Source of the DNA: Coriobacteriia bacterium
GTDB taxonomy: Bacteria; Actinomycetota; Coriobacteriia; Coriobacteriales; UBA8131
DNA: 64,000 nt
Assembly (NCBI GenBank): GCA_009784945.1
Contig: WQXH01000001.1
Span: forward strand, 87,257-151,256
Direction of reading: 5' to 3'
Positions 13,343-58,188 of this stretch are shown here, piece after piece. The translations under genes were made by a program, and so were the position numbers. The notes under the pieces are model-generated. The model saw only the letters and a program-made list of their open reading frames with translations. It did no database searches and was not told the origin of the DNA. The first letter of the stretch is position 1, and each line of letters begins with the position of its first letter.

Positions 13343-16186
13343 ATGAAAGACGCTCACGCATTAACAAAGACAAATGGTATGAGGAAAAAGGTTGCGCGAA
13401 CAAGGAAATTTCTTTGTTACTCGCTCGCCTTCCTCTTGTCCATCAGCCTGTTACCCGCAATGCCTCTCATGGCATTTGCTGATGAGGCTGAAGCACCCGA
13501 TATCGAGCTGGTCAACGAGGAGCAGGATTTCTCTTCGGAAGAAGACCTAGATGGGGCATTTAAATCTGATGAGTCAGAAGGTGAAGATGCCGCTGGCACA
13601 CCTGAACAGGAAGTGCCGTCTAACGATGAGCCAGTGCAGCCCTTCGAGCCGGATTTCAATGATGAAGAGCAGAAAACGCTTCAAGAGCGTGATGCTGCAG
13701 ATGCCTTAGAGGCTGAAGAAGCTAATGACTTGGAGCTTCTAGACGCAGAGGGCCTAGCTGTTACAGAGCTCAGCTTTGAAGTGTTAATGCAAGCTAATGC
13801 TGCCATGATTGAGATTAAGGCTCAAGCAAGCGGACAGCTTACCGTGGCAAACCAATGGGATAGTACCATTGTCGTCTCTCGTAACAACGGCACAGGTACA
13901 CAGGTTGCTCCATGGGGCAAAACCACTTTCTCTGTGAATAATGGTGACACTATAAGAGTCATAGAGTCCAACCCAGGCGTTACCTTCAGGGACTGGTCAG
14001 GCACTAACAATCCCCTCGTTTCAGGTGTAAAGGCTGCTATTGCCGCAATGCCTGCCATGTCTGCCTTCACTACGACCTCAGCGGGCACGGCTGCCGGGCC
14101 CAATTTCTTCAATGCCTTCAACTACGAGGGCACTCTTGCTTCTCTTCCGGCTGGATCGCTCAACACCTCTAAAATTACCACTGCTGATAGAAAGTTCTTC
14201 GCTAGCTTCAACTATAAGGGTTCTCTCTCCTCCCTTCCAGCAGGCTCATTCAAGACATCTGCAATCACCAAAGCGGGCATGTTCTTTTTTCAAAGCTTTA
14301 ACGAAAGCGGAGCTTTGAAATCCCTTCCAGCGGGATCCTTTAATCTCTCTGGTCTTACCACCCTTAATGCCTGGAGCTTTTCTTGGTTCAACGCTGAAGG
14401 TGCTCTCACTTCTCTCCCAGTAGGGTCATTTGACACCTCAAGACTTACCACTGCTGATGGTCAGGGAGTCTTTTGCTATTTCAATCGCAAAGCCAGGCTC
14501 TCTACACTACCAGCTGGATCGTTTAACACATCAAAGGTTACTTCGGTAGGAAATTCCTTTTTTTCCGCGTTTAACTCACAAGGTGGCATTACCTCTCTGC
14601 CAGCCGGGTCATTTGATCTTTCAAAAGTCACTAAAATTGGTGAAGAATTTTTGCAGTCCTTTTGCTACTCAAGTCCTATAGCCTCACTTCCAGCTTCTTT
14701 TAAGCTGCCTCAAAAGCCAAGTACGGTTGGCGCAAAATATTGTGATAGCATGTTTTCATACTCCTCACTCACTCACGGAAACCGATCTGTCTCGCTATAC
14801 TTTGCCGCGCCAGCTCGAAGTGCCTTTTTTTACACTCAAATAACACCAGATAGTCCTGCTATGGGTGCAACGGTCAAGGTAAATGGTCAAGCAGCGCCCA
14901 AAACCTATACGGTGTCTTACAATGCCAATGGCGGAAGCGGAAGTGTGACTAGTCAAAAGGTAACCAACGGAGCAAGCTTTTCCACCAGAGCAAATGGCTT
15001 TACTCGCACTGGATATACCTTTACCGGCTGGAACACCCAAGCCAACGGAAGTGGAACTTCTTGGGCTGCCAGTACTACGCGTACCTATACGGCAACCAGC
15101 AATACTACCGTGTATGCGCAGTGGAAAAAATCTACCACCGGTACAAAGCCCAAGGTCACCACAACAACGGCTTCGGTTCACAGCGGCGTTGTAGGCGTTA
15201 ACTACAAAAAGACGATTGCAGCAAGCGGCACCAAGCCTATAAACTGGACCCGCTCATCAGGAAGTCTGCCCCCAGGACTGAAACTGTCAGGTGCAGGTGT
15301 AATCACCGGAAAGCCAACCAAGACAGGCACCTACTCCTTTGTTGTCAAAGCAGCAAACTCTGCTGGCAGTACTACCAAAACCTTTAAAATCACCATAGGC
15401 GCAGTAAAGATCACTACAGCCAAAGATTCAGTTCATGCAGGCATTACCGGCATAAGCTACAAAAAGACGCTTGCAGCAAGCGGCGCTAAGCCTATCACTT
15501 GGAAGCGTGTTTCAGGAAGCCTACCTCCAGGGCTTAAGCTCTCAAGTGCAGGTGTCATATCAGGTAAACCAACCAAGCAAGGCACCTATACCTTCAAGGT
15601 AAGAGCTACCAATAGCCATGGAAATACCGAGAAGACCTTTACCATCAAAGTCAATAACCCAAGCATATCAATAAGCTACCAAACCCACGTACAATCCGTA
15701 GGTTGGCAAGCTTTCAAAAAAGATGGTGCCATGAGTGGTACTTCAGGCAAAGCCTTAAGGCTTGAAGGCATCAAGATCAACTTACAAAACAACACGGGAA
15801 TCTCTGGAGGCATAAGCTATTCCACTCACGTGCAGTCCATCGGCTGGCAAAAGAAGGTAAGCCTCAACACCAACGGCAAAAGCTTAAAAGACGTCAAAGG
15901 CCCCATGAGTGGCACCTCAGGAAGAGCCTTAAGGCTTGAAGCCATTACCATAGAACTGACCGGAGACTTAAAGAAGCACTACGACATCTATTACCGAGTG
16001 CATGCACAAAAAGTAGGCTGGATGGGCTGGGCAAGAAATGGCCAAGAAGCAGGCACAGCTGGTCATGCCTATAGGCTTGAAGGCATACAGATAGTGTTAG
16101 TACCCAAGGTAGGCGGCAAGAAGCCGGGTAATACCTTCAAGGGCATTACCACGCCACCAAGTACAAAAAGCTTTATTAAGAAGTAA
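13343..16186 (+). CDS. large secreted modular surface protein (LPAGSF repeats, Flg_new/InlB-type repeat, two putative Ig domains, three ChW repeats)
   Basis: A 947-residue secreted protein, probably a surface adhesin or wall-associated factor (inference). Seen in order: basic n-region and signal peptide ending around AFADEAEA (about residue 47); an acidic Glu/Asp-rich linker to about 130; seven ~30-residue repeats with LPAGSFxTSKxT...FF..FN (about 250-470), resembling DUF285-type surface repeats; a YTVSYNANGGSGS...YAQW repeat of the Listeria-Bacteroides (Flg_new) type; two He_PIG-like domains (LPPGLKLSxAGVIxGKPTKxGTYxF); and three ChW repeats (xHVQSVGWQ...SGTSGKALRLEGI). There is no LPXTG anchor. 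The ribosome site supports ATG 13343; ATG 13379 would give a more standard signal-peptide length. Confidence 0.85.
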   Translation: MKDAHALTKTNGMRKKVARTRKFLCYSLAFLLSISLLPAMPLMAFADEAEAPDIELVNEEQDFSSEEDLDGAFKSDESEGEDAAGTPEQEVPSNDEPVQPFEPDFNDEEQKTLQERDAADALEAEEANDLELLDAEGLAVTELSFEVLMQANAAMIEIKAQASGQLTVANQWDSTIVVSRNNGTGTQVAPWGKTTFSVNNGDTIRVIESNPGVTFRDWSGTNNPLVSGVKAAIAAMPAMSAFTTTSAGTAAGPNFFNAFNYEGTLASLPAGSLNTSKITTADRKFFASFNYKGSLSSLPAGSFKTSAITKAGMFFFQSFNESGALKSLPAGSFNLSGLTTLNAWSFSWFNAEGALTSLPVGSFDTSRLTTADGQGVFCYFNRKARLSTLPAGSFNTSKVTSVGNSFFSAFNSQGGITSLPAGSFDLSKVTKIGEEFLQSFCYSSPIASLPASFKLPQKPSTVGAKYCDSMFSYSSLTHGNRSVSLYFAAPARSAFFYTQITPDSPAMGATVKVNGQAAPKTYTVSYNANGGSGSVTSQKVTNGASFSTRANGFTRTGYTFTGWNTQANGSGTSWAASTTRTYTATSNTTVYAQWKKSTTGTKPKVTTTTASVHSGVVGVNYKKTIAASGTKPINWTRSSGSLPPGLKLSGAGVITGKPTKTGTYSFVVKAANSAGSTTKTFKITIGAVKITTAKDSVHAGITGISYKKTLAASGAKPITWKRVSGSLPPGLKLSSAGVISGKPTKQGTYTFKVRATNSHGNTEKTFTIKVNNPSISISYQTHVQSVGWQAFKKDGAMSGTSGKALRLEGIKINLQNNTGISGGISYSTHVQSIGWQKKVSLNTNGKSLKDVKGPMSGTSGRALRLEAITIELTGDLKKHYDIYYRVHAQKVGWMGWARNGQEAGTAGHAYRLEGIQIVLVPKVGGKKPGNTFKGITTPPSTKSFIKK

Positions 16187-17341: not shown

Positions 17342-17387
17342 GGTTGCTTGCTTTATTAGCACAAATACTACCGTCAAAGGATTGACT

Positions 17388-20369
17388 ATGCGCTGGAAGA
17401 TGAAGTCCTTTTCTGCACAGCTGGTAGAAAAGCTGAGTGTAGAACTGGGGGTTTACCGAATTGTTGCCACAATTCTCGCTTTGCGTGGAGCAACAGATCC
17501 ATCAAGCGCCCGTCGCTTTCTTAACCCTGCCTTAGAGGAGCTTTGGAGCAACCCAGAAGATATTCCAGGCATGATAGAGGTAGCAAATGGTGTAGAAAAC
17601 GCCATGCGTACCAATAAACGCATGGTGATATTTGGCGACTACGACGTTGACGGCATTACAGCCTCGGCGCTCATGTATAACGTGTTGCTCTCACTTGGCG
17701 TTAGGGCGCAGGTTGTCTTGCCTCTGAGAGCAGGGGAGGGTTACGGTCTCACAGAGGAGGTTTTAGGGCGCATTCTCTCTTTAGATCCCGAGGTAGTGCT
17801 CACCGTAGACTGCGGTGTTACGGCCGTAGAGGAAGTCAGTTATCTCAAGGCACGTGGTATTGAGGTCTTTGTAACCGATCACCATGAAGTCTCTGATACT
17901 ATCAGCCTTCCTGCCCCTGCGGCAAACCCCAAGTTTGACCCAGATAACCCCGCTGTGATTCTCTCAGGTGTGGGTGTGGCGCTCAAACTTGCGGCTTTAC
18001 TCTGCCATCGTTTTGATAAACCCGAGCTCTGGAAAAGTCAACTTGACCTTGCGGCACTTGGCACCCTCGCAGACTGCATGCTACTTAGTGGCGAAAACAG
18101 AGCGATCGTTTCTGCAGGTATCAGGGCCATCAACACTCAACCACGACCTGGCATTTCTGCACTACTCGAAGTCTCTGGTAGCGCTACAAAAAGTATCAAT
18201 GCGGAGGCTCTTTCTTATGGTCTCATACCACGACTCAACGCTGCCGGACGGGTAAGTGACCCGCTCATATCCTTTAATCTCCTCTGCACCCTGGATCCAG
18301 GCAGGGCAATGCAGTTGGCTCAAAAGCTAGAAGGTCTCAATACCGAGCGCAAGGAGATAGAGGCTGCCCTTATGTCCAAGGCGGTAAGACAAATCGAGGC
18401 CTTGGAGCCTGGTAGAGCCTCTCTGGTTGTGGGAGGTGAGGATTGGCACGAAGGCGTGCGAGGGATAGTTGCCAGCCGGTTAGCTCGTCAGTACGGAGTA
18501 CCTGTAGTAGTTTTTTCATTCGAAAACGAGCTGGCGGTTGGCTCTGGCAGAAGCGTGGGCACCGTTAACCTCTACGAAGCGGTGAGCAGGCTTGAAGACC
18601 ACTGTGTGAGATTTGGTGGTCACGAGGCTGCCATTGGCGCTACCATTAAGAAAAAAGACATTGAAGAGTTTTCCAGGCGCTTAGAAGAGGCTATTAAGGA
18701 GAGTCCCACAGAAACGTTTGAATTAGTTGACGAGATTGACTGCACTTTAAGCTTTGAACACCTGAGCTTTGACGCTATTGATGAACTTGAGATTCTTGAA
18801 CCATTTGGCAATGGCAACCCTGAGCCGCGACTGCTTACCACAGGCCTCATGGTTAGGTCGCCTCGCTATGTCGGAACAGGAGAGAAGCACCTGTCGTTTA
18901 CTCTCTTCGATGGCACAAGAGAGTTTTCTGCTATTTGGTTTAATGCCACATGTAAGTCAATAGATGAGCTGCCTACGATTGCTGATGTAATCTATCATGT
19001 TCGCATCGATAGCTGGCGAGGCAGACGAAAGATAAAACTGCATATTCTTGATCTTTTTGCCGCTGGAGCTGGCTCGCTTAACAGTGAGCGCCCTGCGCTG
19101 GACAAACTGAAACAACTGCTCTTACTTGGTAGTAACAGCGACATATATCAAGAAGTGGCACATTGCATTAATGGTCGTGAGGTAACACTGCGTCGTGCTC
19201 AGTCTAAGTGTTTAGAGACCCTCGCTCAGGGCACTTCGACCTTGGCAATCATGGCAACTGGTAGGGGCAAGTCGTTGATATTTTATACCTTTGCCGCAAC
19301 GCAGGCGTTAAGAAAAGGAAAGGCCAGTCTTTTCATTTACCCACTGCGTTCGCTCATTGGAGATCAAGAATACTTCCTTGCTCATGCACTAAAGCAGCTT
19401 GGGCTTACCTGTGCCAGCCTTACAGGCGCCACTCCCGAGGCCGAGCGACAAAGAATCTATCAGGCTGTTCAGCAGGGCTCGTTATCTGTGGTGCTCACTA
19501 CCCCTGAGTTTGTTCTCGCGCATAGCCACAACTCCAGCCTCTGGTCCAACTTCTCCTTTGTGGCGATAGACGAGGCGCACCATATTGCTACTTCAAGCAA
19601 GTCGTTTAGGCCAGACTACACACGCCTTGAACGCCTGCGCACCCTTATTCCTGGAGCAGTCATGCTTGGACTTTCTGCTACCTCAGATAAACCTACCACT
19701 GATGACATTGTCAAAAGCCTGGGCGTTGAACATATTGTTATTGATACAAGCAAGCGGCCTAATCTCAAGCTTGTTGATCATAGAAATGCAGATTTGCGCG
19801 ATGAGGAATTGGTAAGTATTGTGGCTGGTAGTTTGCGCACCCTTGTTTATGTTTCCTCGCGCGGTGCCACTATCGAGCTCTGTAAACTACTCAGAAAAAA
19901 GCTCGATGGCAAGGCTCAGCGTATAGCCTTTTACAACGCTGCTCTTGAAACAGACGACAGGCGTTCGGTAGAGGAGGCCTTTAGACAAGGCAAGCTCGAC
20001 TGCCTCGTTGCCACCTCTGCTTTTGGCGAAGGGGTCAACATTGCCGATGTGCGCGATGTTGTGCTCTACGATCTACCTTATAGCATCATTGACTTCAATC
20101 AAATGGCCGGAAGAGCCGGTCGAGACGGACTGGAAGCTCATGTACATATATTGGCCAAGCAAGAGGACACTGAACAGCTTCTTACATACCTTGAGCAGCA
20201 AGACGATGTACATCAGAGTGCAGAACAGGCCAAAGCAGAGCATGACGAGCGACAAATGAGCGCAAGACAACTAAAATTGTTTTCTGATTGGTTATTTGAC
20301 GCCAGCCCGCATACGCTGCAGGCTGTCATCCAAAAGCCATTAACGCCGCTTGAGGGTCTTGAGGAGTAA
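17388..20369 (+). CDS. recJ: RecJ single-strand exonuclease fused to a RecQ-family helicase
   Basis: A single 993-residue chain joins two enzymes that usually cooperate as separate proteins in 5'-end resection. N-terminal half: RecJ with FGDYDVDGITA (about 83-92), TVDCG, TDHHE (the DHH metal site), a DHHA1 part with SGRSVGTVNL and RFGGHEAAIG, then an OB fold to about 580. C-terminal half: SF2 helicase with Q motif (RRAQSKCLETL), Walker A ATGRGKS (about 623), IDEAHH (about 728), FRPDYTRLERLR as in RecQ, GLSATSD, and QMAGRAGRDG. The usual RecQ zinc-binding RQC and HRDC domains are absent. ATG 17388 follows AAAGG by seven bases; the track start adds 40 residues without a ribosome site. Rel follows eight bases downstream, so they share an operon. 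Confidence 0.93.
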   Translation: MRWKMKSFSAQLVEKLSVELGVYRIVATILALRGATDPSSARRFLNPALEELWSNPEDIPGMIEVANGVENAMRTNKRMVIFGDYDVDGITASALMYNVLLSLGVRAQVVLPLRAGEGYGLTEEVLGRILSLDPEVVLTVDCGVTAVEEVSYLKARGIEVFVTDHHEVSDTISLPAPAANPKFDPDNPAVILSGVGVALKLAALLCHRFDKPELWKSQLDLAALGTLADCMLLSGENRAIVSAGIRAINTQPRPGISALLEVSGSATKSINAEALSYGLIPRLNAAGRVSDPLISFNLLCTLDPGRAMQLAQKLEGLNTERKEIEAALMSKAVRQIEALEPGRASLVVGGEDWHEGVRGIVASRLARQYGVPVVVFSFENELAVGSGRSVGTVNLYEAVSRLEDHCVRFGGHEAAIGATIKKKDIEEFSRRLEEAIKESPTETFELVDEIDCTLSFEHLSFDAIDELEILEPFGNGNPEPRLLTTGLMVRSPRYVGTGEKHLSFTLFDGTREFSAIWFNATCKSIDELPTIADVIYHVRIDSWRGRRKIKLHILDLFAAGAGSLNSERPALDKLKQLLLLGSNSDIYQEVAHCINGREVTLRRAQSKCLETLAQGTSTLAIMATGRGKSLIFYTFAATQALRKGKASLFIYPLRSLIGDQEYFLAHALKQLGLTCASLTGATPEAERQRIYQAVQQGSLSVVLTTPEFVLAHSHNSSLWSNFSFVAIDEAHHIATSSKSFRPDYTRLERLRTLIPGAVMLGLSATSDKPTTDDIVKSLGVEHIVIDTSKRPNLKLVDHRNADLRDEELVSIVAGSLRTLVYVSSRGATIELCKLLRKKLDGKAQRIAFYNAALETDDRRSVEEAFRQGKLDCLVATSAFGEGVNIADVRDVVLYDLPYSIIDFNQMAGRAGRDGLEAHVHILAKQEDTEQLLTYLEQQDDVHQSAEQAKAEHDERQMSARQLKLFSDWLFDASPHTLQAVIQKPLTPLEGLEE

Positions 20370-20376
20370 GAGTTTC

Positions 20377-22752
20377 GTGTACGAGCACCGTGACATAGAA
20401 AGAATTGACAGCTTTATCGACCTGGAGCCAGATGACTTTAAAACTGGCATAGGCATTCCAACCGATGCCTCAAGTTCAACCGAGGCCTTTTCTAAACTTG
20501 ATGATGCGCTGGTGCATATTGACTTTGCTTTGGTGTTAGAGAAGGTATCGTCATATATGAAGGAGCCGGAGCTTGAACAACTCAAGCGTGCATACCATTA
20601 TGCCAACGACGCCCATGCTGGGCAGACTCGCAAAACCGGCGAGGCTTTTATTACACACCCTGTACAGGTGGCTCTCATTTTGGCAGAGCTGCGCATGGAC
20701 GTTGACACGCTCACTGCTGCCATACTTCATGATACGGTTGAGGACTCCTCACGCTCACTTGAAGATATAGAGCGAGAGTTTTCTTATGACGTCATGGTGC
20801 TTGTAGACGGAGTAACCAAGATAACGCGCATAGAAATCGAGACTTTGGGAGAGCAGCAGGCCAAGAATCTGCGTAAAATGCTGGTGGCCATGAGCCGCGA
20901 TATACGCGTTATTGTCATCAAACTGGCTGACAGACTACATAACATGCGCACCCTGCAAGCACTTCGCAAGGACAGGCGTATCTTTAAAGCACGCGAGACC
21001 ATGGAAATCTATGCGCCGCTCGCTCATCGCCTTGGAATCAACTCAATCAAATGGGAGCTCGAAGACCTCTCTTTTTATTACCTGGAGCCTGTACGTTTTG
21101 GCCAAATCCAACGTATGGTTTCTGAGTCTCGTGATGGTCGCGAATCCTACCTTCACAGCACTATCGAGCTCCTCGAAGAGGAGTTCATCAAAGATGGTGT
21201 TGCGGCACGAATTACCGGTAGGCCCAAGCACCTCTACTCCATCTACCAAAAAGTTGCAGAAAAGGGCAAGGACTTTTCTGATATCTACGACCTTATTGCC
21301 CTCAGGGTAATCGTAGAAAGTGTTGCTGAATGCTACGCCTGCCTCGGTGCCGTGCACACACTGTGGAGCCCTATGCCAGGGCGATTTAAAGATTATATCG
21401 CCATGCCCAAGTTTAATATGTACCAGAGTCTGCATACGACGGTCATAGGCCCTGCCGCCAGACCTCTGGAAATACAGATTCGCACCAAGGACATGCACTA
21501 CGCAAGCGAGTTTGGTGTTGCTGCTCACTGGCGGTACAAGAACAGCTCGGGAGAAAGTGCTGATGCCATTTCTGACGAACAGTTGATGTGGCTTCACCAA
21601 ATGCTCGACTGGGCAGATGACACTACCGACCCCAGCGAGTTTCTCGATGCCTTGCGGCTTGACCTGGAATACTCTGAGGTCTTTGTCTTTACTCCAAAAG
21701 GCGAGGTCATCAGTTTGCGTGCCGGCTCAACACCCATAGACTTTGCCTATGCCATTCATACCGAAGTAGGCAATCACTGTATAGGTGCCAAAGTTAACGC
21801 TTCCATTGTGCCGTTGAGCTACGAACTGCAAACAGGCGACCGCGTAGAGGTTCTTACACAAAAGGGCTCTGGCCCTTCGCGAGACTGGCTTTCTATCGTC
21901 AAGACTCCCTCGGCGCGACAAAAAATCCGCAGTTATTTTTCCAAGGTCACCCGCTCAGATGACATTTTGAGAGGCCGTGAGCTTCTCGCAAAGGAAATGC
22001 GTAAGCATGGCCTGGGAATTTCGTCGTTACGCTCCACTCAGGCTCTCTCAAAGGTCTGTAAAGAACTGGGGGTGAGCGTCAGTGACGAGTTGATGGCTCA
22101 GATTGGCTCCGGTAAAACAAGCCAACGCATGATAGCCAACAAGCTACTAAAGATCTTGGTAAAGCCAGATCAAGAACATTGGTCTGAAGTTACTAACATT
22201 GCTGGTCTTACTAAAACTACGCATGCTGCCATTGCACCAGAAAAGAGGGGCGGACGCAGGTCGCAAAGTGGCGTTTTGGTCAAAGGTTTAGAAGACGTTT
22301 TAGTGCGCCTTGCTCAGTGCTGTAATCCTGTTCCAGGAGACAGCATCATCGGCTTTGTTACCCGTGGCAAAGGAGTGAGCGTGCATCGCATCGACTGCCC
22401 CAACGCCGACAGCCTTCAAAAAACACCCGAGCGCATCATTGAGGTGAGCTGGAAGCAAGAAGCAAGACAAGAAAACACCTTTAATGTTGAGGTTTTTATC
22501 GAAGCATTGGATCGCCTGCGCCTGCTGCAAGACGTTACCATTGCCCTGGTTAATAATGGTGTTAACATCTTAGGCTCCACCACTGTTGTGCACGGCGACG
22601 GCATTGTGGACATGCGCTTTCTTTTTGAAGTTGGAAGCACCATGCAAATTCAAAAAATCCTCGGTGATCTGCAAAGTGTAGAAGGCGTCATTGATGCCAA
22701 ACGAAGCCTGCCGGGTCAAGTTATTAAGAAAAGCAAGGAAAGGAGTCTCTGA
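20377..22752 (+). CDS. rel: bifunctional (p)ppGpp synthetase/hydrolase Rel
   Basis: Makes and degrades the stringent-response alarmone (p)ppGpp. Seen: HD hydrolase domain with HAGQTRKTGEAFITHP and intact HDTVED (about 117); synthetase domain with ITGRPKHLYSIYQK, KDYIAMPKFNMYQSLHTTVIGP and LEIQIRT; TGS domain VFVFTPKGEVISL; a conserved-Cys region QCCNPVPGD (about 647); and a C-terminal ACT domain. Both catalytic domains look intact. GTG 20377 is preferred because GAGGAG lies ten bases before it; the track's TTG 20350 lies inside the recJ-recQ 3' end. It gives 791 residues. The next gene starts on the rel stop (TGATG). Confidence 0.95.
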   Translation: MYEHRDIERIDSFIDLEPDDFKTGIGIPTDASSSTEAFSKLDDALVHIDFALVLEKVSSYMKEPELEQLKRAYHYANDAHAGQTRKTGEAFITHPVQVALILAELRMDVDTLTAAILHDTVEDSSRSLEDIEREFSYDVMVLVDGVTKITRIEIETLGEQQAKNLRKMLVAMSRDIRVIVIKLADRLHNMRTLQALRKDRRIFKARETMEIYAPLAHRLGINSIKWELEDLSFYYLEPVRFGQIQRMVSESRDGRESYLHSTIELLEEEFIKDGVAARITGRPKHLYSIYQKVAEKGKDFSDIYDLIALRVIVESVAECYACLGAVHTLWSPMPGRFKDYIAMPKFNMYQSLHTTVIGPAARPLEIQIRTKDMHYASEFGVAAHWRYKNSSGESADAISDEQLMWLHQMLDWADDTTDPSEFLDALRLDLEYSEVFVFTPKGEVISLRAGSTPIDFAYAIHTEVGNHCIGAKVNASIVPLSYELQTGDRVEVLTQKGSGPSRDWLSIVKTPSARQKIRSYFSKVTRSDDILRGRELLAKEMRKHGLGISSLRSTQALSKVCKELGVSVSDELMAQIGSGKTSQRMIANKLLKILVKPDQEHWSEVTNIAGLTKTTHAAIAPEKRGGRRSQSGVLVKGLEDVLVRLAQCCNPVPGDSIIGFVTRGKGVSVHRIDCPNADSLQKTPERIIEVSWKQEARQENTFNVEVFIEALDRLRLLQDVTIALVNNGVNILGSTTVVHGDGIVDMRFLFEVGSTMQIQKILGDLQSVEGVIDAKRSLPGQVIKKSKERSL

Positions 22753-23348
22753 TGCATATAGAAACCATACCGGTCATGATTGGCGGCAATCGCTTTTTTA
22801 CTGAGAACTGTTACCTCGCCTCTGCAACTGATGAGAGTGCGTGTGTCATTGCCATTGATCCCGGAGATGAACCAGAAGCAATCTTAGGCCATCTTGGTTC
22901 TCGTAGCCTCGCTGCTATAATCATCACGCATGGACACGAAGATCACACTGGAGCCATTCCTCGATTGATTGAGCATACAGGCGCCTCTCTCTATGCCCAT
23001 GAGGGCGATCTTGAGTGGCTTGACGAGGGCGTTAGTAAGCATGTCACCACCTTGTCTGATGGAGAGCTTCTTGATTTGTGCGATTTGAAGCTACTTGTCA
23101 TGCATACCCCTGGCCACAGCCAGGGGTCAATATGCCTCTATAGTTCCGAAGACAGCATTTTGATCAGTGGCGACACACTCTTCAAGGGAACCTGCGGAAG
23201 AACAGACCTGCCAGGCGGCAATCCATCGAGCATGCACGACACCTTGGCACTACTGTCAGCGCTACCGCCAGAGACAAGGGTCTACCCGGGACATGATGCA
23301 CCCACCAGCATAGGTGGGGAGCTAGACCGCGGACTTGCAGAATACTAA
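22752..23348 (+). CDS. metallo-beta-lactamase-fold hydrolase (glyoxalase II-like)
   Basis: A 198-residue hydrolase with the metal motif THGHEDHTGA, then HTPGHSQGSICLY, SGDTLFKGTCGRTDLPGGN and YPGHDAPT, which are the zinc ligands and loop of the hydroxyacylglutathione-hydrolase-like branch. It lacks the C-terminal substrate helix domain of true glyoxalase II, so the substrate is unknown. The ATG overlaps the rel stop (TGATG) with an AAAGGAG ribosome site inside rel. This rel-neighbour arrangement is common in Gram-positive bacteria. Confidence 0.88.
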   Translation: MHIETIPVMIGGNRFFTENCYLASATDESACVIAIDPGDEPEAILGHLGSRSLAAIIITHGHEDHTGAIPRLIEHTGASLYAHEGDLEWLDEGVSKHVTTLSDGELLDLCDLKLLVMHTPGHSQGSICLYSSEDSILISGDTLFKGTCGRTDLPGGNPSSMHDTLALLSALPPETRVYPGHDAPTSIGGELDRGLAEY

Positions 23349-32289: not shown

Positions 32290-34413
32290 TCAGTATGATA
32301 TCACCGTGGTTCCAGAAGGTATATTGTCGTAAATCCATTTGGCATTTTGTAAGTCGAGTCGCACACAGCCTGCTGAGGCAGGCACTCCCATTCTTCCATC
32401 CTTTACCACAAAGGTGCCTTGGTAGTACGAAACAGAGTGAAACAGATAGTCACCATAGAACTGTGTCCACCAATAGCACGAAAAGCCGTTGCCAAAAACG
32501 TACCCTCTGCTGCCAACCGAAAAGGTGCCCTTGACCGTGGGTGTTTGAGGGAGTCCCGGCGAGCACACCCAAAAGTACTGATTGACCCAGCCAAGGCTGG
32601 TTTTACGGTACACCCCAACCAGACAGTTGCCACTGTCGATGGCAAGAAGCCAATTGGTGGGGCTAAAACGTCCAGCCACTCTGGAATTCATCATAAACTG
32701 CGCATGCGTCAGGGGAGGGGCTTCCCAATATGCACCGCTTGTTTGCCCAGGAGCTGGAGACCCTTTAATCACGAGAACCACCTGAAAGGCCTCCATAGCG
32801 CTGTTGAGGGTTGTGGTGCCCGAGTTAGAGCCGTTTCGCGCCCAGCCCAGCCAACCCCAGTTAGCCGAGTGTGCTCGATAGTACACATCAAAATACTGGG
32901 CCATCTGCCCAGTTAATCGTATCCTGATAGCCTCAACCCGCTTGCCCCCATTGGCTATGCCCGACTCGGTACCATTGCTCACCCAGCCCTGCCAGCCTTG
33001 ACCTTGGACATATGAATTGTACTGAATTCCACCGCTGACATTTGAGCTTACATTGAGTTTATAAGCTTGCAGCTGCCTTGACTGTTTGGTGGTTCCCACT
33101 GTTGCGCGAGCAGACACAGTTGATAGCCAGCCTCTGCCAGCTACGTGAGCCTGAGCACTGAGGGAGGCATCAAGAGAGGGTGGTCCAGCGCTTAAGAATG
33201 GCGTGTTATCTCCATGGGGTATGAGCCTTACCTGTATGGCCTCCACTCTGCATGAAAAGCCTACGGTTCCAGCCATGGAACCATCTTGGCCAGAAGTCCA
33301 GCCCAGCCAGCCAACGCCCGCTGAGTGAACACGATAAAACACTTCATAATGGCTGGCGAGTTGGCCAGTGAGCCGGATTTGAATGGCTTCAACGCGCAAG
33401 GAGCGTCCGGTAGTGCCTGCATCTGCTCCATCCTTTACCCAGGGTTGCCAGCCGATTCCCTGTACGTGTGTACGGTATTCGATAGACCCAGAATGCTCAG
33501 GACTGGCGATTCTCAGGCGCAGTGCTTCCATACGCAGTGCACGTCCGGTAGTGCCTGCGGTATCTCCACCCGCTCTCCATCCTTGCCAGCCAATTTTTTG
33601 GACATGGGCATGAGCCTCAAGCGTCATAGGGCGCTTGACAAAGGCATTGGTCTCCACTGTTGCGCTGCCAAGAGGTACAAGTTTGATTTCCAAAGCTTCA
33701 ATCCTGTGGCCATAACCTGAGGTTCCCGCATGTCCTCCATTTGCTGTCCAGCCAAGCCATCCAAACTGTGCCGAGTGCACCCGATATTGCACGTCAAATG
33801 CCTGTGCAAGCTCACCGGTAAGCCTCACGTTGAGTATGTCAAATCTGAGCGCCTTGCCTGTAGTGCCAGATAAGGCACCATCCTTGACCCAGTTTTGCCA
33901 GCCAGCACCTTGTACATGAGTTCGATACTCTATCGAACCTGTCACATTGCTATTTGCCAATCGGATATTGATTGCTTCTGCTCGCAGTGCACGTCCGGTA
34001 GTGCCAGCCTGTTTGCCACCTTTAACCCAGTTTTGCCAGCCAATGCTCTGAACATGAGTCCGGTACTCCAGAGCTGCTGTGGGCGGTTTGGCGCTCTGCA
34101 CTGCCAGTTCGTCATCAGCCTGCATAAGGTCTATGCTGTACCCTTCATTGGCAGTTTCTTCAAGTTGTCCAGCAGGCTCAGCCTCCTTAGGCTTGGTAAC
34201 CACCGCCTCACCAGAGACCTCTCGCTTCAATTCATTTGGCTCAACGGCTTCGAGCGCTTCTTCTTGACCCTCTTCTTCTTGAGGCTGGATGGCGTCATCT
34301 AAAGAAAGCTCGTCTGCCCACGCAGTCTCAAACTCTACCAGAGGCAGTAGGGTAGCGCATAAAACGACTGATAACAGTGCTTTTGATATCTTTTTCATCA
34401 TATCTTTTCTCAT
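32290..34413 (-). CDS. secreted L,D-transpeptidase with nine ChW repeats
   Basis: A 707-residue secreted cell-wall enzyme. Seen: signal peptide with cleavage near AWADE (about 33), an acidic linker, nine ChW repeats in three A-B-C triads (A and B contain HVQxxGWQxW, C contains HSAxxGWLGW), and a C-terminal YkuD domain. The YkuD site reads HSVSY...G.MGVPASAGCVRLDLQNAKWIYDN, the His and Cys of an L,D-transpeptidase, which makes 3-3 peptidoglycan crosslinks or attaches proteins. ChW repeats probably bind wall or matrix (inference). ATG at 34413 with AAAGGAG seven bases upstream. It converges on uvrB with 29 bases between stops. The surface protein at 13.3 kb carries the same A-B-C triad. Confidence 0.9.
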   Translation of the reverse strand: MRKDMMKKISKALLSVVLCATLLPLVEFETAWADELSLDDAIQPQEEEGQEEALEAVEPNELKREVSGEAVVTKPKEAEPAGQLEETANEGYSIDLMQADDELAVQSAKPPTAALEYRTHVQSIGWQNWVKGGKQAGTTGRALRAEAINIRLANSNVTGSIEYRTHVQGAGWQNWVKDGALSGTTGKALRFDILNVRLTGELAQAFDVQYRVHSAQFGWLGWTANGGHAGTSGYGHRIEALEIKLVPLGSATVETNAFVKRPMTLEAHAHVQKIGWQGWRAGGDTAGTTGRALRMEALRLRIASPEHSGSIEYRTHVQGIGWQPWVKDGADAGTTGRSLRVEAIQIRLTGQLASHYEVFYRVHSAGVGWLGWTSGQDGSMAGTVGFSCRVEAIQVRLIPHGDNTPFLSAGPPSLDASLSAQAHVAGRGWLSTVSARATVGTTKQSRQLQAYKLNVSSNVSGGIQYNSYVQGQGWQGWVSNGTESGIANGGKRVEAIRIRLTGQMAQYFDVYYRAHSANWGWLGWARNGSNSGTTTLNSAMEAFQVVLVIKGSPAPGQTSGAYWEAPPLTHAQFMMNSRVAGRFSPTNWLLAIDSGNCLVGVYRKTSLGWVNQYFWVCSPGLPQTPTVKGTFSVGSRGYVFGNGFSCYWWTQFYGDYLFHSVSYYQGTFVVKDGRMGVPASAGCVRLDLQNAKWIYDNIPSGTTVISY

Positions 34414-50464: not shown

Positions 50465-52432
50465 CTACCTAATTACACTCACTGAGCAAGGCTGAATAAC
50501 CCCGTTTTCATGAACTAAAATTACATGATAGCGAGTGTTTCCCATCATGATAGCATGGGTGTCGTTTTCTACAGTTAAAGTAGTGACAGATGCCTTGTCC
50601 CAAAGGTCGCTAGTGACTTCAATTTTTAGTGTAAAGTTGGTCTTTGGTGGTGTGATTGCTGGAGAGAACACCCTTTCGGTTCCATCTTCTGTATAGTCAA
50701 AATTGCTCCCTAGCTCCCACGCTAAAACATTGTCAACGTATAATTTCGCGCGACGTGGGTACGCTTTGTACCAGTCATTACCAGCTAGCCTGATGGTTGC
50801 CGCTTTCGTGCTCTTGTTGTAGGTTAGTGTTGCAGGGATAGAGTCTCTGCCAACCAGAATCGGGCTGCTTTCTGACCAATTACTTGTCCTTGTGCCGCCG
50901 CCCCAGCCAGTTCTTGTTGCTCTACAACGAAGTTTGACCAGCCTCCTGCCAACTGGATTTGTCACAGAGCTTGAGGAGGTAAACCCGCTCGAAGTACTGT
51001 TTCCAATGCTAGCCCAAGAAGACCAAGTAGAGCCATTATTACTCGAAGTTGAGTATTGGTATTCAAAAGTTGTCGTACCTGTTGGGACTTCTGGGGCACT
51101 TGCAAACCCCCACGATGCTTGCGCTTGTACAACATGGTTTGAATTGCCATACGCTACCAGTGCTAGCGTACTTTTTGTAGCACTCAAAGCTGGGAGCGTA
51201 GTCGAGTGAGGGCCAGTTTGCACCCATGCACTGTTGCCAGCGGCATTGACAGCCCTGATTCTTATCCACCTTCTCGTATTGGTGGACGCTGCAACTGAGT
51301 ATGCAGTTGCTGTTCCAGCTAGAGTAGCAGCGCTTGTCCATGATGTTCCATTAGTGGATGTTTCTACAGCAATGGAACTGTATGGTTTGTTTGAGGCACT
51401 GGCGTTCCTCGTCCAGGACAAGGCGATGGTGTTACTGTTAAAAGTCCCTGTCCTTACCAAGTTTGATGGCGCATCCGGGGCGAGCATGGTTATTGCTGTT
51501 GCAGTGTTGCTTGGGCCTGTGTTTCCATAGCTTGATGGCCCTGTTGCATAGACTCGGTAATAATAAGTGCCAGACGGCGGTGTGTAAGTCAACTCTTTTA
51601 CAACAGCGCCTTTATAAATGTCAGTGGTTGCAGCAAAGTTACTGGTGGTAGACCTTTGGACTAACACACCTGTTGCATAGGTAGCGTTGTTCGTCCATGC
51701 GAGCTTCACGTTTGCGCCACTTATTGCAGCAGTCAGATTGCTTGGGGCCGACGGCTGGGTGTAGTGAACACCACTTGTTGCGCCAGTCACCTCCACGCCG
51801 TTATAGCCTGTTGCTGTGTAACGAAACCAAACTCGTGAGTTAGCCGTAAGACTCCTGTTGACAGCAGTGCCGGCAGTAACGCTACCGTGCCGTGTCCAAG
51901 TTGAGTTGTTGTACGAATAATAAAGCGCATAGCTTACCCCGTTTGTCACGGCAGGGCAGGTCACGCTCCTTGAGTTGCCAGTGCCACTTACTGTAGGAGC
52001 AGGAGGCTTTGCGGCCTCTTTGAGCTTTGGGACAGTGACATTTCTTGTGAATTCAGAAAGCCCCCAAGGAGACCAAAATCGAACTCTCAATGTCAAGGTG
52101 TAGTCAGTGTCCTTTTTGAAATAGGCCCTACCAGCAGACAGTTTCTTGACTTGGTTCCAGCCGAAATTAGTTGTGTTTATCCCCGCTGGCTTCCACTCGT
52201 TAAGCCAGACTGTGTTTGCAGGAAAGCTACCTGCGCTGTTGTCTGAGATTCCACAGTGCAAGCCCCAGGTGGTTGCTCCGTGAGAAAGTTTGTTTTCAAC
52301 CCAAGCGGCACCGTCAAAGTCTACACGAGTAGTATATTCTGTGCCTCCGACTGTCAAGTCGTACATACTTGCACACAAGTTGCCATACGTATGCTTTATG
52401 TAGTTACCATCACCGTTGTGCACTGCTGCCAT
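50465..52432 (-). CDS. phage tail/fibre protein with fibronectin type III domains
   Basis: 655 residues. Seen: an N-terminal ~130-residue domain, then about three Fn3-like modules (PSAPSNLTAAISGANVKLAWTNN; PDAPSNLVRTGTFNSNTIALSWTRN) and a Thr/Ser-rich beta C-terminus. Fn3 modules are common in phage tail fibres and probably touch host surface sugars (inference). ATG with AGGAGG upstream on the minus strand. Last gene of the late operon. Confidence 0.82.
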   Translation of the reverse strand: MAAVHNGDGNYIKHTYGNLCASMYDLTVGGTEYTTRVDFDGAAWVENKLSHGATTWGLHCGISDNSAGSFPANTVWLNEWKPAGINTTNFGWNQVKKLSAGRAYFKKDTDYTLTLRVRFWSPWGLSEFTRNVTVPKLKEAAKPPAPTVSGTGNSRSVTCPAVTNGVSYALYYSYNNSTWTRHGSVTAGTAVNRSLTANSRVWFRYTATGYNGVEVTGATSGVHYTQPSAPSNLTAAISGANVKLAWTNNATYATGVLVQRSTTSNFAATTDIYKGAVVKELTYTPPSGTYYYRVYATGPSSYGNTGPSNTATAITMLAPDAPSNLVRTGTFNSNTIALSWTRNASASNKPYSSIAVETSTNGTSWTSAATLAGTATAYSVAASTNTRRWIRIRAVNAAGNSAWVQTGPHSTTLPALSATKSTLALVAYGNSNHVVQAQASWGFASAPEVPTGTTTFEYQYSTSSNNGSTWSSWASIGNSTSSGFTSSSSVTNPVGRRLVKLRCRATRTGWGGGTRTSNWSESSPILVGRDSIPATLTYNKSTKAATIRLAGNDWYKAYPRRAKLYVDNVLAWELGSNFDYTEDGTERVFSPAITPPKTNFTLKIEVTSDLWDKASVTTLTVENDTHAIMMGNTRYHVILVHENGVIQPCSVSVIR

Positions 52433-52440
52433 GTGACCTC

Positions 52441-53145
52441 CTAAATAGTTGCCTCAAGCAAAATGTCTCTGGTTAAGTTAACCTCAACTTGCTCTCTGTT
52501 GATCTCTATGATTCCATAAGCATTAATGCGACTCGGTACAGGTGGCACGATTGTTACTTGTTCTTCATCATCGCCATCATCGCCATCGCCACCGTCACCG
52601 TCGTCACTGCTATCGCCATCATCGCCATCGCCGTCTTCGTCGTCACCATCGTCGCCAGGTCCAGGGTACTCATGCTCGCTTGCATCTTCTGACAAAGGAG
52701 GGATGTGGACAGCGAGAGGCATATCCGTCGGCAGATGGTCGTCAGACAGTGGGATGAGCCCATCACCAAATGGCGTGAAAGCAGATGCGCAAAGGATCAC
52801 ATAGTATCCTTCACTTTTCCTTTCAACAGTTACGACTGAAGTGATTGGGTTAACATCATGCCAACCAGCGCCGGCTACCACGACATCTTGGAGCAACCAG
52901 CTATCAAGTTGCAGTTGCTGTGGATATCCAGATTCAGTGCTCATGTTTCGGTAGCTGGTTTGAAGTTGCCAGCCTGTTATCAGTCCGAAGTCGCCAGGCT
53001 CAGGTCGTATCAGCGTGTTCTCTACTTGTATATCTGATTCGAAGAGAATTACTGTCTGAGTCAGTGAGTGGTTAACACTCTTCAGCTCGAGCGAGAGCCT
53101 GATTCCACCACCTGGGTGTTGAGCGAAGTTGTCGTAATAGTTCAT
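52441..53145 (-). CDS. phage structural protein with acidic low-complexity linker
   Basis: 234 residues. N-terminal beta-rich part of about 150, then GPGDDGDDEDGDGDDGDSSDDGDGGDGDDGDDEEQ, then about 45 residues. The linker is encoded by a triplet-like GAT/GGC repeat. AGGAG upstream of ATG. Probably a virion component by location. Confidence 0.6.
   Translation of the reverse strand: MNYYDNFAQHPGGGIRLSLELKSVNHSLTQTVILFESDIQVENTLIRPEPGDFGLITGWQLQTSYRNMSTESGYPQQLQLDSWLLQDVVVAGAGWHDVNPITSVVTVERKSEGYYVILCASAFTPFGDGLIPLSDDHLPTDMPLAVHIPPLSEDASEHEYPGPGDDGDDEDGDGDDGDSSDDGDGGDGDDGDDEEQVTIVPPVPSRINAYGIIEINREQVEVNLTRDILLEATI
52562..52660. repeat. imperfect trinucleotide repeat encoding the Gly/Asp linker
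   Basis: Plus strand reads runs of ATC, GCC and GTC units. It is prone to slippage; changes would alter linker length and, if not in threes, the reading frame. Confidence 0.7.
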
Positions 53146-53153
53146 GTCAGCTC

Positions 53154-53636
53154 CTAAAGAGGTTTAAGAAAGACGATAGTTCTCCCAGGAATAGCACTAG
53201 GAGTAGGGCTAGAGCTGCTAGCTCCGATAGAAAACACTAAAGGGTTGCCTCCGTCTTGTCTCCTAAGCCCAGCTGCCCCATCGTCAGCAATGTTAGCTCT
53301 CAAAGTGTCAACAATATCGTTTGCCCACACATGAGAGGGCACAACAGTTGCAAAGTGTCCGTATGCTGGAAGTACATTAGTAGCACCACCAACTCTAGTG
53401 GCTTTAAGACTAGTGTGACCTTCCACTGTCCCTCTCCAGACCACACGAGAGGATTCAATCACACTTCCGTTGTCGTCTCTTGCGTAAGTAATGAAATCAA
53501 CCTCACTGGGCCATGCCTCAAGAGGACGATCTACAGACATAGTAATCATGGTTCCACTCACTTGTGACTCTCCTGAGATAGCCACTTCTCTTGCTTCATC
53601 AGTGTTATTCGCGGACACTCTTCTTAGTTTTGTCAT
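53154..53636 (-). CDS. hypothetical phage structural protein
   Basis: 160 residues, beta-rich, with no recognised domain; near the start VAISGESQVSGTMITMSVDRPLEAWPSEVDFITYARDDNG. AGGAGG upstream. Placed between structural genes, with 8 bases to each neighbour. Confidence 0.55.
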   Translation of the reverse strand: MTKLRRVSANNTDEAREVAISGESQVSGTMITMSVDRPLEAWPSEVDFITYARDDNGSVIESSRVVWRGTVEGHTSLKATRVGGATNVLPAYGHFATVVPSHVWANDIVDTLRANIADDGAAGLRRQDGGNPLVFSIGASSSSPTPSAIPGRTIVFLKPL

Positions 53637-53644
53637 GTCGCCTC

Positions 53645-54136
53645 CTAAATTACGTTAACTGTGTTGTCTGTAATGCGAATCTTGCCCTTGAGGGCTTTTA
53701 CGACTTCGCCATCGGGCAGCAAGATGTCAATTGAGTAGTAAACAATGCCAACAGGGAGGAGCATTTCTTCTCTAGTAAGCCTTATGGTTAACTCGCCTTC
53801 TAAAATGTTGTTGCCAACCGAATTAAGCTCTGTCCACTCGCTTCCGTCAAAAGCAACTGCCCTACCATTTTCTAAGAGCCAGCAGATGTCTCCACTCATG
53901 ACACCAGGTAGCTCTTGTAAGCCAGCTGCGTCAATAGCAGAGTGACAGGCAACACGCCTTTTTACTAAAGCAGTATCATCAGTTTTGCTGTCTTCCCACT
54001 TCTCTTTGCGTATTACTAAGACGACAACACAGCCGACCAGCTGAACTGGTGCTCCTGTTTCGATGTCAGATAGACTAATTTTTATCGGAGGGTTAGTCCC
54101 TCTCGGCCAGTCTCTGATGTTATAGGTGTTGCTCAT
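53645..54136 (-). CDS. hypothetical phage structural protein
   Basis: 163 residues, beta-sandwich-like: NIRDWPRGTNPPIKISLSDIETGAPVQLVGCVVVLVIRKEKW, ending GKIRITDNTVNVI. The pattern recalls baseplate or fibre N-terminal domains of phages, not a specific family. Overlaps the upstream gene by ATGA. Confidence 0.55.
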   Translation of the reverse strand: MSNTYNIRDWPRGTNPPIKISLSDIETGAPVQLVGCVVVLVIRKEKWEDSKTDDTALVKRRVACHSAIDAAGLQELPGVMSGDICWLLENGRAVAFDGSEWTELNSVGNNILEGELTIRLTREEMLLPVGIVYYSIDILLPDGEVVKALKGKIRITDNTVNVI

Positions 54137-55761
54137 AGCTCACCTTCTTTCTTGCGCTCAAGCACGGGCTGTGAGCCTGGTGCTTGGATAACGCTGTTTG
54201 AGTTGACAGGTTGATATGAGTCCAGTGCTGTTTGGTAAGTCTTAGCTGCTGGGAGTGTGTAGGCTGATGTATACTGGTCTGCTTTCGTATTTGCTTGACT
54301 GTCGCTTGCTTGTTGTTGTTGATTCCCCCAGAAGTCCATCTGCTTTTGGTATGTGCCAGCTTGCTTCGCTGCGTAACTTTGCATTTCTTGAGAAGACATG
54401 TTCGAAGCGCTGTTAAGTCGATTGCCTTGTTGGTCAAACATAGTTCCGAACCAGTAGTTAGGGTTTGCGTAGATGGACATCTGCTCGTAGTTTTGCCCTG
54501 CTTGCTGACCAACTTTTCCCCAGTAGTCAGCCCATGCTTTAGCGCTTGATTGATTGAACTGGTTAGTGTATTGCGCCCTCTGATCTTCGAGAGTCATGCG
54601 AGCGTCACCATAGTTGGAGTCAGCTTCCCTCATGGCCTTGTTGTAGGCTAACGCCGTGACCTGGTTGGCATTATTTGCAGCTTCAGAGGCAATTTGACCG
54701 AGCCTTCCGCCAAGGGATGAGCCGCCCAGGTTATGTTGACTTAATATGCTGTTCGCTTCTCTGGAGTTTTTGACAGCATTGGATGCGGTCTCGTTTGACG
54801 ACATGAGTAACTCTTGATTGTTCTTGAGTTTATCTGAAGCGTAGTCCTGGTCAATCTTTTGAAGGTTTCGATTGTACTGCTGCATGTAGCCGTCGAGCAC
54901 AGACTGAGCTGCCCCGATTGCGTAGTCACGCTCAGCGCTTGATTGCATGGCGGTAACTTCTGCTTGAGCCTTTGCAGAAACAGCAGCGTTGTCAGCGTTG
55001 AGTGCCTTTTGTTGGTCAGCTTGCTGCTTTTGCCTGAGTTCTGAAGCTGACATACCACCGTTGTCTTCAGAAAACTGAGTTGAAACCGTGTTGCCCTTAT
55101 CATCAGTAATGGTATAAGTTTTGACGACTCGCACATTGTCGCCGTCTCCTGTGGTCGAAACACCGACAGAAACGTCAATGGTGTTTGCTTTATGTTTCAC
55201 TTCTCCAAACTTAGTTTCCAGACCAGCCACTTTTGCTCTTTGGTCTAAGATGATTTGAGACTGGTTTTTATCCATACTAAAGTTCGGATACTGCATTTCA
55301 AGTCGTGCAAGCTCAATTTTCTCAAAGTTCAGCTGAGAGCCGACAGCCTCTGCCTCCTTTTTCCAGTAATCACCACTGGCAATCCAAAACTGAGCCTTTT
55401 GTTCATCTGTTGCATTTGGCTTGAGGGCTGCTGGTAGCTTCAAGTCGTTGGTTACAATCTTGACTGTGTTGTTAAGCGACAGATCGAACGAGGAAGGAGC
55501 TGCTGCTCCCCCACCGCCTCCACCGCCTCCACCCGAGAAGCCAAAGCTTGATGTCTGTGTTTGTTGGTCAGGATAAGGTGCGTTTAAGCCGGGAACTCGA
55601 CCGACCTTACCAGCTGTAGCGCTTGTATTTGGAACAAATATTCCAGCTGAATTAAACGTGCCAGCCTGCCCTCCCAGTGTTGGGTCTGCAAGAGGGTTAC
55701 CAACGTTGGGAAGTGGTGCGACTGGGCCTTGTGCGACTGGGCCTGTGTACCTGTTAACCAT
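54133..55761 (-). CDS. phage coiled-coil virion protein (possible internal/ejection protein)
   Basis: 542 residues. Seen: a Pro/Gly/Asn-rich N-terminus, a stretch of nine glycines then AAAPSS (about 80), and long Ala/Gln/Asn/Ser-rich helical regions with coiled-coil character from about 120 to 500. No enzymatic motif. Next to the portal, such proteins are often internal virion proteins; this is inference. ATG overlaps the portal stop by one base. Confidence 0.55.
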   Translation of the reverse strand: MVNRYTGPVAQGPVAPLPNVGNPLADPTLGGQAGTFNSAGIFVPNTSATAGKVGRVPGLNAPYPDQQTQTSSFGFSGGGGGGGGGAAAPSSFDLSLNNTVKIVTNDLKLPAALKPNATDEQKAQFWIASGDYWKKEAEAVGSQLNFEKIELARLEMQYPNFSMDKNQSQIILDQRAKVAGLETKFGEVKHKANTIDVSVGVSTTGDGDNVRVVKTYTITDDKGNTVSTQFSEDNGGMSASELRQKQQADQQKALNADNAAVSAKAQAEVTAMQSSAERDYAIGAAQSVLDGYMQQYNRNLQKIDQDYASDKLKNNQELLMSSNETASNAVKNSREANSILSQHNLGGSSLGGRLGQIASEAANNANQVTALAYNKAMREADSNYGDARMTLEDQRAQYTNQFNQSSAKAWADYWGKVGQQAGQNYEQMSIYANPNYWFGTMFDQQGNRLNSASNMSSQEMQSYAAKQAGTYQKQMDFWGNQQQQASDSQANTKADQYTSAYTLPAAKTYQTALDSYQPVNSNSVIQAPGSQPVLERKKEGEL

Positions 55762-57488: not shown

Positions 57489-57578
57489 TAGGCGCTCCTA
57501 ACGGTCGGGAACCATTTTCGTGACGTTGCGAAAATGGTGTAGATGGGTGCTGGTCTTTTGAGGGGTGTAGGTGGTTTC

Positions 57579-57746
57579 ATGAACGAGTACTGCCCAAATT
57601 GCGATGCTGTAGTTTTAGACAGTACGGTTGAATGCCCAGAGTGCTCAGTCAGATTTATTAGTATTAGTGAAGGCGTGCTTATGGTTGCGGTGCCAGAGAA
57701 AACTGGCAAGTGCCCTGAGTGTGGGTTCACCGTAGTCAGCATTTGA
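57579..57746 (+). CDS. small zinc-ribbon protein in an inverted cassette
   Basis: 55 residues from ATG 57579 (the track's 57543 adds 12). Seen: YCPNCDAVVLDSTVECPECSVRF and KCPECGFTVVSI, three CPxC pairs in a tiny protein, a double zinc-ribbon. It runs opposite to the surrounding late genes and is followed 21 bases later by a membrane-protein gene with a strong ribosome site. The larger minus-strand ORF over this spot is a shadow. Confidence 0.65.
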   Translation: MNEYCPNCDAVVLDSTVECPECSVRFISISEGVLMVAVPEKTGKCPECGFTVVSI

Positions 57747-57767
57747 TTTTTTAGAAAGGAGGAACCA

Positions 57768-58169
57768 ATGCTCAACCAAATGTTTGAACCGACAAACGAC
57801 TTCTCAGTCATTGAAGCGCTATCTTTATATTTATCAATTTTGCCTTGGCATGTGGTCGCTGTCCTTGTTATTACTATTCTATTGTTACCGTTCTTTGCTT
57901 TGTGGAAGAGGATGGAGGATTCAGGGTCAGCAGAAAAGCTTAAGAAATCCGCCGCCGCCTTAGTAGCCGGAGCTGGTCTTGGTTTCTTCCCGGCTCTCCT
58001 GCTAACCTGTGTAGTTTTTTTCGCTGCTGCACAAATAAGGCCACACACAGGGCACATTCCGATTCTTGACGATGTTTCAGCTCTCGCAACTTTCTTCATT
58101 ATCTTTGCAGCTTGCACCACTCTTGTCATCTTCTTGGCAAAGCCAAGCGAGAAAGATAGCGGCGCGTGA
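57768..58169 (+). CDS. membrane protein in the inverted cassette
   Basis: 133 residues, AAAGGAGG upstream. Seen: three hydrophobic segments (about residues 27-45, 63-88, 105-125), with acidic and basic residues between. It could be a holin-like, immunity or exclusion protein; no family is clear. Its stop lies 19 bases before the stop of the giant minus-strand gene. Unlike most neighbours it is on the plus strand. Confidence 0.7.
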   Translation: MLNQMFEPTNDFSVIEALSLYLSILPWHVVAVLVITILLLPFFALWKRMEDSGSAEKLKKSAAALVAGAGLGFFPALLLTCVVFFAAAQIRPHTGHIPILDDVSALATFFIIFAACTTLVIFLAKPSEKDSGA

Positions 58170-58188
58170 CACGAGCATGGTACTGTGA

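Follow-up and report, generated by a model that had tools for sequence, protein, structure and literature searches.

The window, that is, the whole stretch of 64,000 nucleotides that was analysed, contains a gene in which a RecJ nuclease and a RecQ-like superfamily 2 (SF2) helicase core are joined in one chain, with the catalytic motifs of both halves kept. The fusion is ancient and class-wide. It is reasonably probable, in our judgement, that this gene is the Coriobacteriia form of recJ, in which a 5'-3' exonuclease is joined to a 3'-5' helicase for coupled resection. End resection by RecJ together with RecQ is a textbook partnership, and an entire class has here retained a natural single-chain version of it. 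The search, which covered the open-access literature, found no paper describing a RecJ-RecQ fusion, and the conserved arrangement seems to be undescribed so far; such fusions satisfy the RecJ model, and their annotation is presumably just RecJ.

Structure and conservation of the fusion gene

The reading frame begins with an ATG at 17388 and ends with a TAA at 20367-20369, and contains no internal stops and no frameshifts. In the 993-aa protein, Pfam matches were obtained for DHH (residues 79-226), DHHA1 (349-438) and RecJ_OB (450-555) in the RecJ half, and for DEAD (603-769) and Helicase_C (816-914) in the helicase half. The RecJ half is complete, with DHH, DHHA1 and OB domains and their catalytic motifs, and residues 24-555 scored 470.7 bits against the NCBIfam recJ model TIGR00644, above the cut-off of 396.9. 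The DHH motif columns are invariant or almost so across alignment A1. The SF2 core occupies residues about 600-945 and all helicase motifs were found in it. The Pfam matches and the uninterrupted frame bear out the preliminary description, which reported an intact RecJ followed in the same chain by a full RecQ-like SF2 core. The features are listed in Table 1.

Table 1. Features of the fusion gene and its downstream neighbours (positions in the window)
Feature	Position	Strand	Basis or remark
RecJ-helicase fusion gene	17388..20369	+	993 aa plus stop; full-length homologues found
Shine-Dalgarno-like AAAGGA	17376..17381	+	6 nt 5' of fusion ATG; read from sequence
DHH nuclease domain	17622..18065	+	Pfam, motif inspection
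DHH motif I, FGDYDVDG	17631-17654	+	Motif inspection
DHH motif II	17805-17819	+	Motif inspection
DHH motif III, TDHHE	17874-17888	+	Motif inspection
DHH motif IV	18060-18077	+	Motif inspection
DHHA1 domain	18432..18701	+	Pfam, motif inspection
DHHA1 motif GSGRSVG	18540-18560	+	Motif inspection
DHHA1 motif GGHEAAIG	18615-18638	+	Motif inspection
RecJ OB-fold domain	18735..19052	+	Pfam
Interdomain linker, ~45 aa	19053..19187	+	Alignment A1; HIRAN sits here in older relatives
Helicase RecA1 domain	19194..19694	+	Pfam, motif inspection
RecA1 Walker A, TGRGKS	19257-19274	+	Motif inspection
RecA1 DEAHH	19569-19583	+	Motif inspection
RecA1 FRPDY	19605-19619	+	Motif inspection
RecA1 motif III, SATSD	19674-19688	+	Motif inspection
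Helicase RecA2 domain	19833..20129	+	Pfam, motif inspection
RecA2 motif IV, YVSSR	19848-19862	+	Motif inspection
RecA2 motif V, TSAFGEGVN	20013-20039	+	Motif inspection
RecA2 motif VI, QMAGRAGRDG	20100-20129	+	Motif inspection
Shortened C-terminal tail	20223..20366	+	Alignment A1; structure model of long relative
rel, bifunctional ppGpp synthetase/hydrolase	20350..22752	+	Pfam, gene order; conserved downstream neighbour
MBL-fold hydrolase	22752..23348	+	Gene order; conserved next neighbour; same order in Monoglobus

A structure model of the full fusion, for which the window protein and five relatives were the input, gave a mean pLDDT of 74.5 and a pTM of 0.48; the predicted domains are believable, the placement of the two halves relative to each other is not. 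The first fold matches were S. aureus RecJ (8y30) and the D. radiodurans RecJ-DNA structure (5f55), followed by the RecQ cores 6crm and 4tmu.

A match to the fusion was present in 397 of 400 genomes sampled from one class, judged from named relatives (L003-L007) to be Coriobacteriia, whose members live in the gut and in the environment. Full-length fusions were found as one ORF of about 1,000-1,390 aa in nearly all families of the class that were examined. The arrangement was continuous both in two other genomes of the same genus, at 59-62% identity to the window fusion, and in dozens of other genera, at 40-50%, and each catalytic motif was kept in 51-57 of 57 fusions. Three families outside the class but in the same phylum also have the fusion, which is complete in f34 and f96 and was seen in f87 as far as the contig extends. 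That the fusion arose by a recent accident, or from an error of assembly or annotation, is all but excluded; the window's genome is a fragmented assembly, 88% complete, but the continuous arrangement recurs in hundreds of genomes, some of which are assembled as a single contig, in the class and in the three further families, and this conservation rules out an artefact or a frameshift as its source. Two individual fusions have odd frames, which are possible assembly errors or inserts: a 1966-aa frame (L046:1801-7698) matches the RecJ-to-RecA1 part alone, with RecA2 in a different frame, and another (L047:3332-7495) has an additional stretch between RecA1 and RecA2.

The downstream order of rel and the MBL hydrolase is common to fused and unfused recJ genes, including those of Clostridia, where the recJ-rel neighbourhood is the same as that of the fusion, and the fusions lie mostly at the usual recJ site directly 5' of rel. 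This conserved order identifies the fusion gene as the normal recJ and not as a paralogue present in addition to it; a further recJ gene was not found in the window's genome (88% complete, fragmented assembly). In one genome, G008, the helicase half has been cleanly lost, leaving a 571-aa RecJ (L103:3236-4948) directly followed by rel; its genus otherwise has the fusion, as in G003. The motor is therefore not indispensable. A further genome of this genus (G092) is also without a RecQ-like match.

Relationship of the helicase half to RecQ

By sequence and fold, the nearest solved relatives of the fused helicase were RecQ, WRN and BLM, whose cores share with it all SF2 motifs and GRAGRDG, and a model of the C-terminal half of a relative gave the RecQ core 1oyw as its first fold match. 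A comparison of the C-terminal half with RecQ models, proposed in the preliminary description, led to its recognition, though at 202.4 bits for TIGR00614 (recQ_fam; cut-off 219.8) and 186.2 bits for TIGR01389 (cut-off 640.2); other fusions scored about 160-225 bits. RecQ has an aromatic-rich loop after motif II (W..DFRPxY), which couples ATP use to DNA. This loop was present in 16 of 19 unfused RecQ-type proteins but in none of 57 fused helicases, and no Pfam match to the zinc-binding, RQC or HRDC domains of RecQ was obtained in the window fusion. In trees, the fused helicases, together with a stand-alone relative described below, were separated from the RecQs by a branch supported 100/100, and after rooting with RhlB and RecG outgroups the fused clade had an SH-aLRT of 87. 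Because of the missed cut-offs, the absent loop and the tree position, the helicase half is not RecQ proper; its sequence places it in a clade beside RecQ, without membership of it. The description as a RecQ-type helicase is therefore upheld for the RecQ-like SF2 core and not for RecQ itself, while the reported lack of RQC and HRDC was confirmed. Derivation of the fused helicase from the host's recQ is ruled out by the trees. The defence helicases DpdF and PsyrT are similar to the fused helicase by profile, a likeness that we attribute to common RecQ-like descent and do not take as a sign of a role in defence.

The two activities of the fusion are also those of E. coli RecJ and RecQ in the RecF pathway, but there they reside in separate proteins. 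Bacteroidales likewise have separate proteins, although the genes adjoin: recJ and recQ (L139:2992-6607, L140:2992-6642, L141, L142) are adjacent and co-directional, with an overlap of 8 nt in one record, from Bacteroides finegoldii. Unlike the fused helicase, Bacteroidales RecQ has the aromatic-rich loop and groups with RecQ, and this adjacency shows an independent tendency to link RecJ and RecQ activities physically. The four matches over 80% in plasmid and phage records were all adjacent Bacteroidales recJ and recQ genes, and no in-frame RecJ-helicase fusion was found in those records. A nuclease and a RecQ-type motor are also joined, physically or functionally, in WRN and in Dna2-Sgs1/BLM resection. 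WRN has an exonuclease and a RecQ helicase in one chain, but its nuclease is 3'-5' and of another fold, and Dna2 is a separate SF1/PDDEXK enzyme. RecBCD, AddAB and AdnAB resemble the fusion in resecting ends with a motor and a nuclease, but their SF1 motors and PDDEXK nucleases are unrelated to its SF2 motor and DHH nuclease.

Accessory domains and the C-terminal domains of other RecJs

Older fused members have the architecture RecJ-HIRAN-helicase-winged-helix. In deep members HIRAN lies between OB and helicase (E 1e-8 to 1e-18), and by motif it was found in 29 of 57 fusions; Pfam found none in the window protein, and the window's genus and many Coriobacteriales families are without it. The HIRAN of deep members contains the stretch R(D/E)P.N..D.NA, which from the alignment we take to be the counterpart of a stretch with two asparagines that HLTF HIRAN requires for DNA binding; HLTF HIRAN binds ssDNA and forks (PMC4666394). 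HLTF and Rad5 have HIRAN beside an SF2 motor, as do the older fusions, but the motor is of the SWI2/SNF2 type and RecJ is absent, and the window fusion itself has no HIRAN.

A C-terminal tail of ~150 aa is present in nearly all members outside the window's genus. A high-confidence model of a long relative predicts it to be winged-helix-like, composed of helices and a two-stranded wing, and places it where the RQC winged helix is found in RecQ. Of this tail, the last conserved stretch (F..W....P..P) alone is left in the window fusion, and alignment A1 shows the window's genus as a reduced form, from which HIRAN and most of the tail have been trimmed. The suggestion that the RecJ half may do the DNA-binding work overlooks both the predicted winged-helix tail of the relatives and the HIRAN of older members. 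A stand-alone HIRAN-helicase-winged-helix protein of 648 aa (L169:4998-6944, IMG/VR contig 2837169743), which has no RecJ half, is about 44% identical to the fusions over nearly its whole length, starting at residue 2, which corresponds to the linker through to their last residues. As it aligns nearly end to end with the fusions, the helicase part is a self-contained module. This protein is a candidate for the pre-fusion ancestor; in the tree it nests among the fused helicases, and a monophyletic fused group was not rejected (p-AU 0.106). The 58-kb viral contig that encodes it also encodes an actin-like protein of the ParM/Alp type.

The DHH-DHHA1-OB core of the fusion is common to RecJ (TIGR00644; S. 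aureus 8y30, D. radiodurans 5f54-5f56, T. thermophilus 2zxo), but in solved RecJs the OB is followed by no more than a C-terminal domain of about 130-230 aa, where the fusion has a complete helicase. In other actinobacterial families and in Bacillota, unfused RecJs have a C-terminal domain, Pfam PF10141, to which several actinobacterial RecJs and the tails of several fusions match below threshold. In profile-profile comparison, pooled C-terminal domains aligned with RecA2 and tail of the fusion over 222 columns (probability 99.3, E 2e-20), against control maxima of 7.8 for 60 column shuffles, 0.3 for reversed profiles and 11.6 for true RecQs. The domain from family f74 matched RecA2 alone at 93.8 and the tail at 98.4, and its RecA2-like part has lost the helicase motifs. 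With the Bacillota domains the tail alone was significant (94-97), and RecA2 homology was not detectable in them by this method, even after more sequences had been included. When the tail by itself (A3) was searched against PDB sequences, no meaningful match was obtained. At the level of profiles, these comparisons show the C-terminal domain of many unfused RecJs to be homologous to the tail of the fused helicase and, in f74, to a decayed second RecA domain as well; for f48 they no more than suggest RecA2 homology, and it is plausible that the Bacillota domain derives from a helicase. Many unfused RecJs may thus carry the relic of a helicase as their C-terminal domain, and this could account for where the so far unexplained domain of Gram-positive RecJs came from. 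No paper treating PF10141 in this way was found in a search of the open-access literature. In a RecJ tree, whose deeper order lacks resolution, the unfused f74 fell among the fused f34, f87 and f96 (group support 91), and loss of the helicase in f74 is favoured for this reason. Intermediate states of the one fusion can thus be seen: complete, trimmed, decayed and lost.

These homologies, together with the loss of motifs in f74 and the natural state of G008, from which the helicase has cleanly gone, would fit a helicase half that is chiefly a scaffold or DNA-binding platform for RecJ, with a minor ATPase that decays repeatedly and leaves the C-terminal domain of other RecJs. Such a role agrees with D. 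radiodurans RecJ, whose C-terminal domain binds SSB and enhances the nuclease activity (PMC4846377). We nevertheless regard it as improbable; in the fused clade, 51-56 of 57 sequences retain Walker A, DEAHH, motif V and motif VI, which points to selection on ATPase activity.

Other resection enzymes and the proposed role of the fusion

The window's genome has a free RecQ encoded by a separate, complete gene (L002, 623 aa, 729.5 bits), in which zinc-binding, RQC and HRDC domains were all found. The preliminary description held that separate full recJ and recQ genes would speak against the fusion; recQ was found and recJ was not, and the fusion stands regardless. The genome also encodes a UvrD-like helicase with a C-terminal PDDEXK nuclease (L093:820-4434), as one ORF, and the second PDDEXK protein that usually accompanies such an enzyme in the class was not seen in this ~88% complete assembly. 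PDDEXK_1 proteins were found in 77 of 80 genomes, mostly as two in tandem, and an AddAB-like gene pair is present in the majority of the genomes in the class. By an approximate manual count from the match table of 120 sampled genomes, a free RecQ-type protein, recognised by a best match above 390 bits, was present in about 69; about 46 had the fused-type helicase alone and 5 had neither. Replacement of free RecQ by the fusion is ruled out for the window's genome by the complete RecQ there, and replacement of AddAB is unlikely given the 77 genomes with PDDEXK_1 proteins. The fusion, likened earlier to a minimal RecBCD/AddAB, is not the only resection machine here.

RecJ digests ssDNA 5'-3' and RecQ-type helicases move 3'-5'. 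In the proposed mechanism, the helicase would load on the 3'-ending strand at a DNA end, gap or stalled fork and move 3'-5' into the duplex, a polarity taken from family resemblance. The displaced 5'-ending strand would pass to the tethered RecJ, and unwinding and 5' resection would advance together, a coupling suggested by the same resemblance, to yield a 3' tail of ssDNA on which SSB, RecFOR and RecA could act. HIRAN probably holds a 3' end or fork in ancestral members, and the winged-helix tail probably splits the duplex, which is the job of the RQC domain in RecQ; the window's genus would work with the trimmed version. The geometry of a single chain suits the coupled 5' resection that had been envisaged from the start. 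RecJ, RecQ and SSB resect blunt or 3'-overhang ends, and in Deinococcus a direct RecJ-RecQ contact was not found (PMC4846377).

The lack of the aromatic-rich loop in all 57 fusions, and the free RecQ and UvrD/PDDEXK enzyme in the genome, count against coupled resection as the explanation. The free RecQ, the AddAB-like enzymes and the helicase loss in G008 are evidence against a sole or essential role. The fusion is probably active mainly in RecF-type gap and fork repair, beside the AddAB-type machinery and not in its place.

The absent loop, the presence in older members of the fork- and ssDNA-binding module of HLTF (PMC4666394) and the handling of double-strand-break ends by AddAB-like enzymes in most of the class would be in keeping with a helicase half that is an ATP-dependent remodeller, not an unwinder, translocating or branch-migrating like HLTF so that forks are reversed or proteins stripped. 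This is rather unlikely, as is its corollary that RecJ would trim newly made lagging strand where forks have stalled; the best sequence and fold matches are to unwinding RecQ helicases, not to SWI2/SNF2 dsDNA translocases, and the window's genus and many Coriobacteriales families have no HIRAN. For coupled resection, the fusion is a tractable enzyme with which the mechanical coupling of unwinding and 5' digestion can be tested, and it could reveal how RecJ gets placed on the displaced strand.

Other genes in the window included a run of large co-directional ORFs on the reverse strand (50465-63981) of 655, 542, 575 and 1930 aa, with smaller ones between; these four largest had no Pfam match at E 1e-5. 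Also on the reverse strand, 32290-34413 encodes eight ChW repeats and a C-terminal L,D-transpeptidase (YkuD) domain. On the forward strand, 13343-16186 encodes a secreted-looking protein of 947 aa with repeated F..G.L.SLPAGSF units and with putative Ig-like repeats.
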